Virus record (IMG/VR): IMGVR_UViG_3300023174_006980
Span: 1-64,000 of that record
Length of the DNA stretch: 64,000 bases
Source of the DNA: a virus
Strand: one strand, 5' to 3'
Part shown: one piece after another, positions 49,092-60,236 of the stretch
Position numbering within the stretch: the stretch's first letter is position 1
Layout of the letters: each line of letters opens with the position of its first letter
Position numbers and translations under genes: made by a program
The notes under the pieces: model-generated
What the model was told of the DNA's origin: nothing
What the model saw: only the letters and a program-made list of their open reading frames with translations
Databases searched by the model: none

Positions 49092-50618
49092 ATGATTAAA
49101 TTTATAGTTTCCGAAGATTTACAATGGCTTATATTAAATGACTATAATGAGGAAGTTGATAAAAAACAGCTTGAGCTATCTTTAACAAGAAAAATACATA
49201 ATCACTTTTTCCATCCATTGGTGAAGAAAAAAATATGGAATGGTGAAATATGTTTCATAGATAAAAAAGGACCCCTATGGAGAATACCTATAGGATTATG
49301 GAGTGAGGTTTTTGATATAGGAGAAAAATATAAAATAGAAATAGAGGTTATAGGTCTGGATCATATTATTGATAACACCCTTACTCTTGAAGACTTTACC
49401 CTATGGGCAAATGATTTTTTCAAAGATAAAGAATTAAAACCAAGAGATTATCAGATAGAAGCTGCTTGGAAAATAGTTAGATTTAGATTCTCTTGTCTTG
49501 AAATTGCAACATCATCAGGAAAGACCCTTATAGCTTTTATAGTTCTAGCTTACCTTAAGAATATAAGGGGTATTAATAAATTCCTTATGATAGTTCCTAA
49601 TACAACACTTATTCTTCAGGGATCTGAGGATTTTGAAGGGTATGGTTTAAAAGAACTAGATAACTGCGATATACAATTAATTCATGGCGGTAACAAAAAT
49701 AAAATATCTGGTGGATTAATGATAGGAACTTATCAATCATTAGTTAAGCAGGAAGACTCTTTTTTTGAAGGAGTTGAAGCAATATTTGTGGATGAGTCCC
49801 ATCAGACTTCGGCAAAATCAATCAAAGATGTTATATCAAAGTGTAAAGATTCTAGATATAGATTTGGTCTTTCTGGTACACTTACTAATAGAAATACTGC
49901 AGAGCATTTAACTATACAGCAATTTTTAGGTCCTTTAGTCATGGAGATAAGTCCAAAATTTTTATTTGATAACAAATATGCAACCCCTGTTTCCATAAAG
50001 ATAGTAAAGATGGACTGGCTTGATAATGATATAAAAAGGAAGCTATATGATCTAAGAAAAAATAAGAGTGAAATAGAGGGTAATGAAATATTTTCCATAG
50101 AAAGAAAGCTAGTTGTATCCTCTGATAAAAGACTTAATTATATAGTGGATTTCGTTGCTAAAACAAGCAAGAATTCTTTAGTGCTTTTCCAGTCAGTGGG
50201 TGACGGATACGGGAAAAGAATTTATGATATTCTAAGGGAGATCCAGGCGGAAAAAGAAATCTATTATGTTGATGGAGACACTGATCCACAGCAGAGGGAT
50301 TATTTTAAAAACAAAATGGAAGAAGGAGTTAATAAAGTAATGGTTGCCAGCTTTGGTACACTAAGTACTGGGGTATCTATGAAGAACATACACAATATAT
50401 TTCTGACCGAATCCTATAAGTCAGAGGTTTTAATTAAACAAAGTCTAGGTAGGGGTATGAGACTGTATGAAGGTAAGGAGAAGGTAAATATCATAGATTT
50501 TGTTGACGATTTCTCATGTGAGGGATCTGATAACTATCTTATGAAGCATTCCAATGAAAGGATAGAGATCTACAAAAGGGAAAAATTCGAATATAAAATA
50601 TACAACGTCAAGCTTTAG
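49092..50618 (+). CDS. uvsW: UvsW-like recombination DNA helicase
   Basis: 508 residues (T4 UvsW 503), colinear with it: an N-terminal domain with HNHFFHPLVKKKIWNGEI, the Q-region KPRDYQIEAAW, Walker A ATSSGKTL (about 138-147), motif II as DESH (about 234-237; T4 has DECH), the FGLSGTL motif III, a second RecA domain with VLFQSVGDGYGKRI, VASFGTLSTGVSMKNIHNI and KQSLGRGMRL. It unwinds R-loops and branched DNA, shutting off origin replication and supporting recombination-dependent replication. It is the last gene of the block. Confidence 0.92.
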   Translation: MIKFIVSEDLQWLILNDYNEEVDKKQLELSLTRKIHNHFFHPLVKKKIWNGEICFIDKKGPLWRIPIGLWSEVFDIGEKYKIEIEVIGLDHIIDNTLTLEDFTLWANDFFKDKELKPRDYQIEAAWKIVRFRFSCLEIATSSGKTLIAFIVLAYLKNIRGINKFLMIVPNTTLILQGSEDFEGYGLKELDNCDIQLIHGGNKNKISGGLMIGTYQSLVKQEDSFFEGVEAIFVDESHQTSAKSIKDVISKCKDSRYRFGLSGTLTNRNTAEHLTIQQFLGPLVMEISPKFLFDNKYATPVSIKIVKMDWLDNDIKRKLYDLRKNKSEIEGNEIFSIERKLVVSSDKRLNYIVDFVAKTSKNSLVLFQSVGDGYGKRIYDILREIQAEKEIYYVDGDTDPQQRDYFKNKMEEGVNKVMVASFGTLSTGVSMKNIHNIFLTESYKSEVLIKQSLGRGMRLYEGKEKVNIIDFVDDFSCEGSDNYLMKHSNERIEIYKREKFEYKIYNVKL

Positions 50619-52096: not shown

Positions 52097-54025
52097 ATGT
52101 CAGGAATAAAACATTTAAGCGAAATATACAAAAAACAAGGATCACAATTTTTGGATGATCTTTTTGGAAGAGAGGTTACCGTTACAGAAAAACTAAACGG
52201 AATGTCATTCTCTTTTGAAAGAAGTTTATTGGATGGAACTATCTATTTTTATAAAAGGGATCAAAACAATCCCATATCTAAGATAGACAGAGTACTGATG
52301 CAACAGTATGATGATCCAATCTACCATATAAAAAATCTTCCAGAATCTGTTTTAAGTGAAATTCCTGCCGGATGGAGATTTGGCATGGAATATTTTTATA
52401 GCAATAATCCAATCTCTATAGCGTATCAAAGAACCCCTTTAAATGGACTGGTTCTTACACACATCTCTGTTAAGAATGAATTTGGAGATTTGGAGAGAAC
52501 CATAGTTGATAAGGAGGAGCTTGATTACTGGGCGGATATGATAGGAGTGGAAGGACCCCCTATTATTTTTCAAGGTGAACTAACGGATGAGCAAAAAGTT
52601 GCTATTAATGATTTTGTGAACTCACCCAATGATACTCTAAAGAAGGATCACGGAACTTATAGTTTTGCAAAATATCTGATCACAGTTTTAAACCCTAAAA
52701 TAGACAAATCATTTCTGAATAATTCTTTAGATGAACCTATAGAAGGAGTGGTTTTTAGATTTGGTAAACTAGACGGAACTGGAGAGGCTTTCACAGCTAA
52801 AATATTGGACCCAATTTTTGATGATATCACAAAACAAAATAACCTTAAAAAAAGAAGTTATTTTCCTAGTGACATATATGGAATTACAATTTTAGATGTA
52901 ATGAATTTTATACTTGATAAAGGAGTGGATTCGTTTGCGTATGAAGGAAGTGAACCATCTGATAGATACATCACTTATATTTGTTCCGTATTTAATCAAT
53001 TTATAGAGAAGTACGGTGAGAGGTATTTGGGATTAGACTTCCAGGAGCCAGACTATTTAAAATCTGAAAAATCATCATTTAATTTGGATTTAATACCTGA
53101 TGAGGAAACTAAGAAGATAATCTCTGATGATGAAAGCTATAAATCTTTTTTTAAACTTATTCTTTCTGCATTTAGAAAGATCAAAAAGAAGGAAGGCGGA
53201 TTTTTCACTAAAGGAGCTATAGATCAGTTTAATTTGCTTGTTAGAGAAATAACAGAATATCTTAATAGAGAAACCACTGTTACAGAATCAGCTATACCAA
53301 CTTTCGATCAGTTTAGACAGGTTAAAAAAGTTTTTAAACCTATACCGGAAGAGGAGCCAGAAGAGGAGCCAGAAGAGGAGCCAGAAGAGGAATCAGAGGT
53401 TAAAAATGAAAAGCCAGTTGAGATCGAAAAGGATGAAGAAATTGAAAGCTCAGATGATGCTGAGCTAGATCCTATAAGATCTGCAGTAATCTCTCACGAT
53501 CTTGCACAACAGACGGAGGGAGATCCAGTTAATCTTGTAATAGGAAAATTTAATCCATTTCATAATGGCCACTATAAATTAATAAAAAAAGCAAAGGACC
53601 ATAATGGATTGCCTGTTGTTGTTTTTGTTATTAATCAAGGTAAAGGATTCTTAGATAATGATATGATGACTAAGATGATGGATTTAGTTTCCTCCGAGAT
53701 GCAAGATTCCATTAAATCCGTTAAATTTGTAGATAATGATCTTTTATCAACAGTTGTGGATAATCTTGATGATGACTGTATCCCAAAGACCTTAACAGTT
53801 GGGAAAAAAAGATTGGACAATTATCTACTACAAAGTAGATCACTTAAGAAAAAGAATAAGATACCAAAAGAATTTTTGATACAGACAGCTCCAGATTGGG
53901 TTACCTCAAATCAGGTTAAAACCATATTAGATAATGAGGATTATTTAGATTTTAAGAAAAATGTGCCTAAATCAATATATCCACTCTGGGAAGAAATAAG
54001 AAGGTCTTACACTAAGAAAAAATAA
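52097..54025 (+). CDS. Fusion: RNA/DNA ligase-like nucleotidyltransferase + NMNAT-like adenylyltransferase
   Basis: 642 residues in three parts. The N-terminal part has the covalent nucleotidyltransferase motifs: motif I EKLNG with K32 as the likely AMP-accepting lysine, motif III WRFGMEYFY (E98), motif IV EGVVFRFG (E216) and motif V FTAKIL (K235). This arrangement is closest to RNA ligases. A helical region (about 290-415) and an acidic Pro/Glu linker (EEEPEEEPEEEPEEE, about 416-430) follow. The C-terminal part has the adenylyltransferase motif GKFNPFHNGHYKL (HNGH at 489-492) and the downstream TSNQVK (603-608) in the place of the ISSTxxR motif, as in NMN adenylyltransferases. It may join nucleic-acid repair to NAD metabolism. 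Substrates are unproven. Confidence 0.75.
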   Translation: MSGIKHLSEIYKKQGSQFLDDLFGREVTVTEKLNGMSFSFERSLLDGTIYFYKRDQNNPISKIDRVLMQQYDDPIYHIKNLPESVLSEIPAGWRFGMEYFYSNNPISIAYQRTPLNGLVLTHISVKNEFGDLERTIVDKEELDYWADMIGVEGPPIIFQGELTDEQKVAINDFVNSPNDTLKKDHGTYSFAKYLITVLNPKIDKSFLNNSLDEPIEGVVFRFGKLDGTGEAFTAKILDPIFDDITKQNNLKKRSYFPSDIYGITILDVMNFILDKGVDSFAYEGSEPSDRYITYICSVFNQFIEKYGERYLGLDFQEPDYLKSEKSSFNLDLIPDEETKKIISDDESYKSFFKLILSAFRKIKKKEGGFFTKGAIDQFNLLVREITEYLNRETTVTESAIPTFDQFRQVKKVFKPIPEEEPEEEPEEEPEEESEVKNEKPVEIEKDEEIESSDDAELDPIRSAVISHDLAQQTEGDPVNLVIGKFNPFHNGHYKLIKKAKDHNGLPVVVFVINQGKGFLDNDMMTKMMDLVSSEMQDSIKSVKFVDNDLLSTVVDNLDDDCIPKTLTVGKKRLDNYLLQSRSLKKKNKIPKEFLIQTAPDWVTSNQVKTILDNEDYLDFKKNVPKSIYPLWEEIRRSYTKKK

Positions 54026-57213: not shown

Positions 57214-57561
57214 ATGATTAGAAGTTTATTTCCAAACCATGTTTTCGATCTTTACACAGATCTAGATTCACAATTAGAATCTTATCTTCCTGTAGAAAAT
57301 GGAACACTTACTTTAGATGTTCCTGGCTTTTCAAAAAAAGACCTATCTCTTGAAATTGATAAGAGCCTAGGACTTTTATCTGTTATAGGGGAAAAAGAAA
57401 TTAATGGAAAGAAAAGAAAAGTCAACAAATCTATAAGGCACCAAAAACTAAGAACTGTAGATCTTGATAAGGTTGAAGCAAAAGTTCAAGATGGTGTACT
57501 AACTGTCTTCATTAAAGAATTAGAAATTAAAGAGACTAAAAGACAAATTTCTTTAAACTAG
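57214..57561 (+). CDS. Small heat-shock protein, Hsp20/alpha-crystallin family
   Basis: 115 residues with an alpha-crystallin core: LTLDVPGFSKKDLSLEI, LLSVIGEKE, and the hallmark KVQDGVLTVFIKEL (about 88-101). It is shorter than most host Hsp20 proteins, with minimal N- and C-terminal extensions. Hsp20 genes are frequent in T4-like phages. The protein probably prevents aggregation of phage proteins during late assembly. The upstream 148-bp gap contains divergent signals. Confidence 0.9.
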   Translation: MIRSLFPNHVFDLYTDLDSQLESYLPVENGTLTLDVPGFSKKDLSLEIDKSLGLLSVIGEKEINGKKRKVNKSIRHQKLRTVDLDKVEAKVQDGVLTVFIKELEIKETKRQISLN

Positions 57562-57579: not shown

Positions 57580-57966
57580 GTGGAAAAGATTGATCTAATA
57601 CAAACACATTATCTTGAGGATCCCTGGAAAATCATGATTTCCTGCATCCTCCTAAACCAGACTACTAATATACAAGTTAGACCTGTTATTATAGATCTGT
57701 TCAATCGTTTTCCCACACCAAATTCTATTACAGAATCAGATGAATTCGAAATAGCAAGTATTATAAGAAGTACTGGGTTTCAAAATGTAAAAGCAAGAAG
57801 AATTATAGCTTTCACACAAAGCTGGAATTCAGGAGAAAGAAACCCTGAAAAATTTCCAGGAATTGGTCCATATGCTAGGGACTCTTGGAAAATCTTTGTT
57901 GAGGGTATTACTGATATATTTCCCACTGACAAGAAGCTAAAAATCTATTTAGCTCAACTCCCTTAA
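57580..57966 (+). CDS. MBD4-like helix-hairpin-helix DNA glycosylase
   Basis: 128 residues, GTG start at 57580. It aligns by eye with the glycosylase domain of MBD4: EDPWKIMISCILLNQTTNIQ, RSTGFQNVKARRIIAF, the HhH turn FPGIGPYARDSW (92-103) and the catalytic segment FPTDKKLKIY with D117. It lacks the C-terminal Cys residues of an iron-sulfur cluster. MBD4-type enzymes remove T or U from mismatches. In this phage it may repair deaminated bases. It lies in a row with Hsp20, glycosyltransferase and polymerase genes. Confidence 0.8.
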   Translation: MEKIDLIQTHYLEDPWKIMISCILLNQTTNIQVRPVIIDLFNRFPTPNSITESDEFEIASIIRSTGFQNVKARRIIAFTQSWNSGERNPEKFPGIGPYARDSWKIFVEGITDIFPTDKKLKIYLAQLP

Positions 57967-58006: not shown

Positions 58007-58780
58007 ATGGATAAAAATATTATTGTTGTGCAAAATGCTTATGAAGATATTACACATACTGCACAGAGCATATCATCAATTAGGGAAGCTGCACATAGAT
58101 GGGGTGTTAATTTTTATGAAATAACACATAAACAATTTCCAAGATCCCCCTATCCTACAGGAAGAGATAGGTTTTGGACTTATGAGGAATTTAAAAGCTA
58201 TGATAAGGTTTTAGCGCTTGATGCTGATATCATTATTAATTCTAAAGCCCCAAATATATTTGATGAGCTGACCGAAGATTATGATTTATGTGGGGTTCTT
58301 GATGGAAATCCTGGTGGTAGATTTAAGCATAATGATTCTTTTTTAAGAGATACATTATCTAGAAGAGCAGCTTTTATCTGTGACACAGAAAATGTCTTTA
58401 AAAATTGCATACCTAATTTTGATATAAATAAATATTGGGATAATTATATTAATACAGGGGTTGTACTTTTTAGACCCGAAAAAATTTATGATATAGCTCA
58501 AAAATTTAAGGATATAGTTCTAAATTCAGAGGAAATGCATTCATACTTTAATATCAAGAGTGGATCTTGGTTTTCTGATCAAAATATTTTTAACGGGTTA
58601 GTCTCAGTCTCTAATCTTAGATTAAAAATACTAGCTAATGAATGGAATTGGATACTTCCTGATATACAGGAGGAATGGAGAGATGATTTTTATCTTGGCC
58701 CGATGAAGCCTTGGATTTATCATTTTTGCGGAACACCTAATTCTAAGGATGACTTAAGAACCTATGATCGGTGGAAATAA
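58007..58780 (+). CDS. GT-A fold glycosyltransferase (GT8-like)
   Basis: 257 residues. The nucleotide-sugar site has a DxD motif in KVLALDADIIINSKAP (D72/D74), and the family block YINTGVVLFRPEKI (about 148-161) follows. Conserved His/Cys near WIYHFCGTP could complete the metal site. GT-A enzymes transfer sugars from UDP- or GDP-sugars. It does not look like T4 alpha- or beta-glucosyltransferase. Adjacent polymerase and dCTPase genes make a DNA-modifying role imaginable, but a role on surface glycans is equally possible. Confidence 0.75.
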   Translation: MDKNIIVVQNAYEDITHTAQSISSIREAAHRWGVNFYEITHKQFPRSPYPTGRDRFWTYEEFKSYDKVLALDADIIINSKAPNIFDELTEDYDLCGVLDGNPGGRFKHNDSFLRDTLSRRAAFICDTENVFKNCIPNFDINKYWDNYINTGVVLFRPEKIYDIAQKFKDIVLNSEEMHSYFNIKSGSWFSDQNIFNGLVSVSNLRLKILANEWNWILPDIQEEWRDDFYLGPMKPWIYHFCGTPNSKDDLRTYDRWK

Positions 58781-58826: not shown

Positions 58827-60236
58827 ATGATAATCGACATTGAAAATTTAGGGGAATCTTTAAAAGTATCCCATTACACGGAAGAAGGAGAAGTTGCTTA
58901 CTTAAATCTTGAAATACCAAAATCAGAAAGGTACTCTTGGAGAAAATGTTCAGCATCCGATAGAGCCAGAGAAAAAGGATGGGCATCTTGGGACGGATTT
59001 CCTATAAAGAAACAGCAAGGATTAAAATATGACAAATATAGACTTGTTGAGATGCTTGAGATGTTTGATAAAGATGTAACTAAACCACTTTGGGAATCAC
59101 AAACACCTAAGAAATATTTTGTTGATATAGAGGTTGAGATAACAGACAATCGAGCTGATTCACTAGATACATTAAGGGCTAATAATAAGATTCTAACCAT
59201 AGCAATTGCCTCATCAACGGGCAAGATATTGGTAATGGGATTAGATAAAATGGATTCACCTAAAATATTAAATATAGAGAAAAGGGTGAATGATCATTTT
59301 AAGGATTTACCCTATGATCTAAAGTGGACATTTAATTATAAATCATTTGAGAGCGAATTTGATATGATCTATACTTTTATGTCTAAGCTCATGCATAAAA
59401 TGCCATTAATCACAGGATGGAACTGGTTTGGATATGACTGGCCTTATATGCTTAATAGAGCAAAAAAATTAGGTATAGATCCTGCAATATCTTCTCCTAG
59501 CGGAATTCTTTTAGGAAAAACCCAAATACCAATGCATGGTTTAATGGTGGATTATATTGAGATCTATAAAAAATGGGATAGGGTAATTAAAATAAGAGAA
59601 TCAGATTCGCTTGATTATGTTTCCAAAGCTGCTAATGGAGTAGGTAAAATTCATTACAATGGAACTCTTAAAGATTTATATGAGTCAGATTTTGAGACAT
59701 ACATTTTCTATAACGCAATAGATTCCTGTCTTGTTCATTATATAGATGAAAAATTAAATACCCTTGCAACATTTTTTAAAATAGCAAATGTAAGTGGGGT
59801 TGAAATAAACAGAGCACTTTCTCCTGTCTGGACAACTGAGGTTTTAATGGTAAGAAAATTCCTGGAGAGAAAAAGGATAATAACATACGATAAAAAGAAT
59901 GAAGAGCACACTAAATTCGAAGGTGCATATGTTAAACAACCCATTAAAGGATTACATGAATGGATAGTATGCTTTGACTTTGCATCGCTTTATCCAAACA
60001 CAATGATGCAGTGGGGAATATCACCAGAAGTTTTCATAGGAAAGAATTTATCAAACCCACCAGAGGGTGCAATAAAAACAGCAAGCGGCGCATACTTTCA
60101 TTCAAAAGAAGGCAACCTTCCTATATTAAAAGACGTACTTACATCTTTATATGCTATGAGAAAATCAGCAAAGAAGAAGTATCAGGAATGTGAGAACAAA
60201 ATAATTCAATTAGAAGAAATATTAAAAAATAAATAA
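58827..60236 (+). CDS. 43A: Family B DNA polymerase, N-terminal half (split gp43)
   Basis: 469 residues colinear with the first half of T4 gp43 (898). The 3'-5' exonuclease motifs are visible: Exo I FVDIEVEIT (about 98-106), Exo II ITGWNWFGYDWPYML (about 194-208) and Exo III YNAIDSCLVHYID (about 295-307). Motif A CFDFASLYPNTMMQW follows at about 382-396. The protein ends soon after, in a charged helix (KKKYQECENKIIQLEEIL), well before motif B (KxxxNSxYG) and motif C (DTD). Two stops (TAAATAA) close it and the next gene, 1 bp on, is the dCTPase, so no frameshift restores it. A separate C-terminal half must lie outside this window. Confidence 0.88.
   Translation: MIIDIENLGESLKVSHYTEEGEVAYLNLEIPKSERYSWRKCSASDRAREKGWASWDGFPIKKQQGLKYDKYRLVEMLEMFDKDVTKPLWESQTPKKYFVDIEVEITDNRADSLDTLRANNKILTIAIASSTGKILVMGLDKMDSPKILNIEKRVNDHFKDLPYDLKWTFNYKSFESEFDMIYTFMSKLMHKMPLITGWNWFGYDWPYMLNRAKKLGIDPAISSPSGILLGKTQIPMHGLMVDYIEIYKKWDRVIKIRESDSLDYVSKAANGVGKIHYNGTLKDLYESDFETYIFYNAIDSCLVHYIDEKLNTLATFFKIANVSGVEINRALSPVWTTEVLMVRKFLERKRIITYDKKNEEHTKFEGAYVKQPIKGLHEWIVCFDFASLYPNTMMQWGISPEVFIGKNLSNPPEGAIKTASGAYFHSKEGNLPILKDVLTSLYAMRKSAKKKYQECENKIIQLEEILKNK

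Follow-up and report, generated by a model that had tools for sequence, protein, structure and literature searches.

The window, a stretch of 64,000 nucleotides, is part of a 76.7-kb IMG/VR record in which sequence reading recognises T4-like phage genes for the tail, a UvsW-like helicase and a B-family polymerase. An ORF at positions 52097-54025 (+ strand, ATG start) encodes a protein of 642 amino acids, which the preliminary description took for a ligase-like nucleotidyltransferase fused to an NMNAT-like adenylyltransferase (Table 1). Further downstream lie an Hsp20-like gene, an endonuclease III-like DNA glycosylase gene and a glycosyltransferase gene, named from sequence reading, and a B-family DNA polymerase gene that, here as in relatives of this phage, stops past the exonuclease part; its second half is not encoded by the next gene. 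Split T4-like polymerases are known.

Table 1. Positions of features in the window and in related loci (entries with an L number are positions in those loci; aa, amino acids)
Feature	Residues	Position	Strand	Evidence or remark
Ligase-superfamily adenylyltransferase-like domain (T4 Rnl2 fold)	1-236	52097..52804	+	Pfam, alignment, AlphaFold2, Foldseek
Motif I EKLNG, codon of K32	32	52190-52192	+	further residues R54, E98, E216-G217, K235
Helical C-terminal part of ligase-like half	237-394	52805..53278	+	AlphaFold2, conservation comparison
Internal motif VTESAIPTFDQFRQV	395-409	53279..53323	+	conserved [VIA]xES-IPTFxxFR
Disordered acidic Pro/Glu linker	410-475	53324..53521	+	AlphaFold2 pLDDT about 31-36 over residues 420-472
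HxGH nucleotidyltransferase domain (PPAT/NaMNAT/NMNAT fold)	476-642	53522..54022	+	Pfam, Foldseek, profile search
GKFNPFHNGH	483-492	53543-53572	+	HNGH at 489-492
TSNQVK	603-608	53903-53920	+	
UvsW-like helicase		49092..50618	+	cluster 1; syntenic anchor upstream in 54 loci; identity by sequence reading
Upstream gene, 234 aa		50668..51372	+	conserved, cluster 15; capsid-targeting-like N-terminus (MKHLDSFDLFEG)
Upstream gene, 84 aa		51391..51645	+	conserved, cluster 18
Upstream gene, 141 aa		51668..52093	+	conserved, cluster 9, 17 loci; ends 3 bases before the fusion start
Next gene, 179 aa		54097..54636	+	capsid-targeting-like N-terminus; homologue fused to the fusion's C-terminus in L020
Gene, 106 aa		54629..54949	+	capsid-targeting-like N-terminus (MDNLKRYSQFVNES)
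Hsp20-like		57214-57561		
Endonuclease III-like DNA glycosylase		57580-57966		
Glycosyltransferase		58007-58780		
B-family DNA polymerase, stops at about 470 aa		58827-60236		cluster 12, 15 loci
Pol-beta-like nucleotidyltransferase		L017:4641-5579		
Pol-beta-like nucleotidyltransferase		L061:4307-5254		
Pol-beta-like nucleotidyltransferase		L089:2128-3138		
Pol-beta-like nucleotidyltransferase		L090:2441-3361		
Pol-beta-like nucleotidyltransferase		L002:8781-9872	-	
Fusion extended by a third domain		L020:6001-8604		joined via KIIKDFQSFSEG
915-aa three-domain protein		L091:3483-6230		LR756508
DUF6267 example		L088:3646-4848		
DUF6267 example		L260:4478-5671		

Is the fusion real? AlphaFold2, supplied with a 53-sequence family alignment, predicts two domains with confidence and disorder in the linker between them (residues 420-472), and Pfam and Foldseek agree with it on both folds. 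Pfam RNA_ligase (PF09414) covers residues 25-221 at 27.2 bits against a cut-off of 27, and CTP_transf_like (PF01467) covers residues 481-514 at 27.1 bits against a cut-off of 21; independently of these scores, family members L020 and L021 reach 30.5 bits for RNA_ligase and 35.3 bits for CTP_transf_like, respectively. The top Foldseek match to solved structures is T4 RNA ligase 2 (2hvr, E 2.4e-8), and the adenylyltransferase domain 1s68 gives a TMt of 0.55 against the window model. Alignments over the full length to 2hvr run to 372 columns but with an rmsd of 21 Å, and no Pfam match to a C-terminal Rnl2 model is found in the window protein. The second half matches many PPAT and NaMN adenylyltransferases and also NMN-type ones, for example 4nah (E 5.6e-7, TMt 0.69). 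Structure prediction of both halves was among the checks named beforehand; it finds the adenylyltransferase fold, whose lack would have counted against the fusion. A single-sequence search of the PDB with the window protein returned nothing significant. The family profile matched PPAT and NMNAT structures with its C-terminal half and no ligase in the PDB; the ligase assignment therefore stands on Pfam and on the fold. The two-domain identification is far above chance.

All the residues and motifs first noticed (K32, E98, E216, K235, the acidic linker, GKFNPFHNGH and TSNQVK) are in place, together with R54 at the motif Ia position. Motif V of T4 Rnl2 has two lysines, K225 and K227 (PMC3149579), and that of the window protein has a single one (T233-A-K235, in TAKI). 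The chance that the ligase half of the window copy can adenylylate itself seems to us an even one. The helical part behind this domain is conserved within the window clade nearly as well as the catalytic-domain part. In the second half HNGH is present, and TSNQVK is a weak second motif when set against the ISSTxxR type. PPAT and NaMNAT folds match this half alike, and because the fold does not separate the substrates of PPAT, NaMNAT and NMNAT, the label 'NMNAT-like' keeps its HxGH adenylyltransferase part and, as regards NMNAT, becomes one of several readings; NMN or NaMN as the substrate is a tentative choice, with the odds somewhat against it.

How widespread is the fusion? A search of phage records finds it in LR756500, a 462-kb uncultured phage, and finds the ligase-like half alone in five megaphage records of 634-735 kb. 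A single-sequence search of viral contigs with the window protein gave nothing; an alignment search gave 181 relatives, of which 80 were kept, so that the proposed search for the same fusion in other phages has yielded LR756500 and further viral contigs. No family relative occurs among 84,980 bacterial and archaeal genomes, and a cellular origin was rejected on this ground. The fusion forms an old family (family 1) that is confined to viruses and occurs in uncultured large T4-like phages. Of its 62 distinct proteins, 18 carry a fused HxGH domain with the motif intact, and for 16 a separate HxGH gene starts 4-34 bp downstream, an arrangement found in a sister clade in which about 500-770 residues of unrelated sequence take the place of the C-terminal half. 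In L035-L056 these replacement regions run from about residue 420 to 930-1174, and the one from L042, the sole one examined, has no confident Pfam match. In L020 the fusion extends into a third domain, a homologue of the window's next gene, joined via a capsid-targeting-like stretch.

The active sites of this family are not kept as faithfully as the domains. K32 is present in 30 and absent in 23 of 53 aligned rows, with at least 4-5 independent changes on the tree, and on the same tree of 53 the HxGH motif was lost at least four times among the 25 domain-bearing rows. The megaphage-type short forms all read E-D-[IV]-Q-G and have also lost the motif V lysine, while their other conserved residues are retained. 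Every comparison shows stronger conservation in the ligase-like half than in the HxGH half (77% vs 59% for L007, 40% vs 26% for L026). Because K32 and HxGH were lost repeatedly, catalysis is not a constant feature of the family, and these losses weaken the suggestion of the preliminary description that one polypeptide couples strand repair to NAD or NMN chemistry.

The main finding is the pairing of a ligase-like protein with an HxGH enzyme, rather than the single fusion. The pair recurs as adjacent genes, as overlapping genes and as fusions in both orders, in hundreds of related phages, and we regard the pairing as very nearly certain. Family 2 is ligase-like, with a sequence distinct from family 1, and is the upstream neighbour of family 1 in LR756500 and many other loci. 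Once 41 ORFs truncated by a contig end are left out, 35 of 39 family-2 ORFs in viral contigs have the reverse order, with HxGH N-terminal to the ligase-like domain. The active-site columns of family 2 (E-K-x-D-G, R, E, E-G, K) are invariant in 36/36 rows; many members carry GRFQPFGPHH, which may mean an altered HxGH site. The cultured Microcystis phage Mel-JY01 has the reverse fusion near its terminase gene. An AlphaFold2 model of the reverse fusion L246 has a low-confidence pLDDT of 65.6, and its top PDB matches, all RNA or DNA ligases at E >= 0.01, are suggestive only. The protein at L091 combines ParB-like, HxGH and ligase-like family-2 domains.

A third ligase-like family is DUF6267 (PF19782), which tblastn finds in 469 phage records. 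Its K-x-D-G-A-P, EG[FY]V and K-x-V-x-R elements form a ligase-superfamily pattern whose key residues are invariant in five diverse members. HxGH motifs around DUF6267 have a strict placement: 56 lie downstream in the same orientation, and 266 kb of upstream sequence and 622 kb of the opposite strand contain none. The DUF6267 and 'cytidylyltransferase' genes overlap in S-PRM1, S-ShM2 and P-RSM3 and adjoin in S-PM2, and in Xanthomonas phage X1 and Stenotrophomonas phage Moby the genes of short K[LM]DG proteins overlap the HxGH gene. The pairing is not universal: no HxGH neighbour is annotated in the DUF6267 region of Bellamy, and in S-SM2 both genes lie far apart. Genes of pol-beta-like nucleotidyltransferases (GS.GK..SGDxDL or GS..GDxDI) also recur near the pair, and those of L017 and L061 start with a capsid-targeting-like sequence. 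Their assignment as RlaP was considered and rejected, there being no Pfam support for it and no confident Pfam family for these proteins.

Are the three ligase-like families related? Homology of the window's ligase half with family 2 and DUF6267 found no lasting support in profile comparison: the values of 24% and 58% obtained for family-2 pairs in small early alignments fell to less than 3% in deeper ones. Deeper profile comparison links none of the three (below 3%), and hhalign gives DUF6267 and the window family a probability below 1%. The claim is therefore limited to a shared residue pattern and to the pairing. As sequence profiles do not link them, the families either share a very ancient origin or came to be paired with HxGH more than once; in both cases the association looks functional, not accidental, and its survival in unlinked families suggests that the two enzymes are tied biochemically.

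Where would such a pair act? Entry into the T4 head requires no more than the first ten residues of IPIII, and the cleavage site of gp21 lies behind L/I-x-E (PMC9026906). A capsid-targeting pattern followed by [LIVF]xE stands at the start of 121 of 624 same-strand neighbour ORFs (shuffles: mean 14, maximum 23), including 12/15 of family 2 and 5/7 of the pol-beta-like nucleotidyltransferases, and at none in the clusters of the helicase and other replication genes. A T4-type (gp21-type) prohead protease domain (PF03420) is encoded in 11 of 16 records. The N-terminus of the fusion itself has no capsid-targeting sequence cut after L/I-x-E. Many members have a motif between the two halves (VTES-AIPTFDQFR in the window, an FxTFxxYL variant outside the window clade), which may be an internally placed capsid-targeting and prohead-protease site; it is unmatched in several family members. 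The idea that it once began a separate HxGH gene was discarded, since split forms retain the motif in the ligase-like protein too. The HxGH partner has been detected in purified virions of the cyanophages S-SM1 (PMC3037559), S-CREM2 (PMC10665884), S-SCSM1 (PMC9602691) and S-SZBM1 (PMC9146016), and the N-terminus of the S-SZBM1 protein, MRFRQFIIEA, fits targeting and I-x-E cleavage. The authors of the cyanophage work cautioned that detection in virions may reflect carry-over, and the ligase-like DUF6267 partner is absent from the listed virion proteins of S-SZBM1 (gene 141) and S-CREM2 (58914-59765). For these reasons packaging is likely for the cyanophage HxGH partner; for the fusion it is a sensible conjecture, and we rate its entry into the head slightly above even odds.

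Taken as a whole, the explanation we prefer is that T4-like phages have a head-associated pair for adenylyl transfer, with a probability of roughly 0.4 (0.42). The protein would be made late and enter the prohead, where the gp21-type protease may cut near E397 in the linker; it would then be delivered with the DNA into a new cell, and adenylyl transfer could start at once. The ligase half, with K32 charged with AMP, would act on broken or 5'-phosphate RNA or on nicked duplex ends, and the HxGH half would make an NAD- or CoA-type dinucleotide or adenylate a related small molecule. Where a lineage lacks K32, the ligase-like half might be only a binding or structural module.

Could the fusion instead serve NAD metabolism under host defence, the HxGH half restoring NAD from NMN when a defence depletes it and the ligase half using or sensing NAD? 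Phage salvage with NadV, NadM and NadR is already known (PMC9503650), motifs of the GRFQPFH.GH type resemble those of NadM/NadR-type NMN adenylyltransferases, and MJ0541 is among the matches of the family profile search with the HxGH half. PPAT and NaMNAT folds, however, fit at least equally well. NadV occurs in 7 of 16 records, in none of the seven next to the fusion, and mostly with another HxGH match within about 10 kb that is never the fusion, and the large fragments G001-G003, which are incomplete records, carry the fusion without NadV. This explanation is unlikely. Strand repair and NAD/NMN chemistry may possibly share the polypeptide, a proposal that the separate NadV locus weakens further.

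An equally improbable account is that of an unpackaged protein repairing tRNA or other RNA in the infected cell, with Rnl2-like sealing and an accessory nucleotidyltransferase. It draws on T4 RNA ligase 2 as the best fold match and on the pol-beta-like gene upstream in 11 loci and near the pair in X1 and Moby, which recalls the RNA-ligase-associated pol-beta enzymes of Iyer et al. (PMC7824862). Those genes, however, lack a Pfam match to the RlaP family, no kinase or phosphatase partner is recognised beside the fusion, K32 is repeatedly lost and the neighbours start with capsid-targeting sequences. Many of the same genomes also have, at other sites, at least one strong canonical RNA ligase. As these ligases and the NadV loci sit apart, the fused halves are, in the genomes that have them, additional enzymes and not the main NAD-salvage or RNA-repair set. 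The least probable account, a head structural or assembly protein whose enzyme folds are mostly relics serving as binding modules, would explain why domains stay conserved after loss of K32 or HxGH, why megaphage forms keep their other residues without the two lysines and why the C-terminal part can be swapped, but it sits poorly with the ligase residue set kept in the window clade, the invariant family-2 site and a pair that persists across unlinked families.

The head-associated pair would have a wider meaning. Cyanophage virions repeatedly contain HxGH 'cytidylyltransferase/NMNAT' proteins, whose presence there is puzzling, and Pfam assigns DUF6267 no function; placing both in one recurrent ligase-like/HxGH pair, fused in either order, provides these orphans with a shared function open to testing and leads to the prediction that many environmental T4-like phages deliver an adenylyl-transfer activity from the head. 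A bolder and distinctly less probable version is that T4-like phages widely carry an unnamed two-enzyme adenylyl-transfer system, at least partly head-packed and injected, with its active sites working in series on one substrate. If so, the serial sites could, for instance, within minutes of infection make a nucleotide or NAD-like cofactor and then attach it to the ends of RNA or DNA. The searchable literature, which leaves subscription papers outside its scope, holds no account of the ligase-like plus HxGH architecture or of DUF6267, and within that scope the earlier statement that this is no described system is upheld.

How does the pair compare with known systems? With T4 RNA ligase 2 (gp24.1; PF09414) the window protein shares the fold, the order of motifs I, Ia, III, IV and V and the corresponding residue set (K32, R54, E98, E216-G217, K235); it differs in its one motif V lysine, in an unrelated-looking helical second half, in the fusion or pairing with an HxGH enzyme and in the loss of the lysine in some members. 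Phage NAD salvage (NadV with NadM/NadR) likewise uses an HxGH adenylyltransferase, but the fusion has no adjoining NadV and no Nudix or kinase partner domain. The T4 internal head proteins (IPI-III, Alt) have a targeting motif plus [LIVF]xE similar to that of the neighbours, family 2 and the pol-beta enzyme included, whereas the fusion has no such N-terminal sequence and is only presumed to be packaged. Other HxGH nucleotidyltransferases (PPAT/CoaD, NadD/NMNAT and the phage 'cytidylyltransferases' phrog_395, phrog_3041 and T4-GC190) have the fold and GxFxPFHxGH in common with the window domain, which differs in standing C-terminal in a fusion, in the weak second motif of its clade and in close relatives (L007-L013) that read NNGH. 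The cyanophage 'cytidylyltransferase', detected in virions, comes closest in context, as it likewise adjoins a ligase-like gene. There, DUF6267 (T4-GC71) and the cytidylyltransferase are separate genes and the ligase-like part is without significant sequence similarity to the window family, yet a ligase-type pattern is encoded directly upstream of the HxGH gene.
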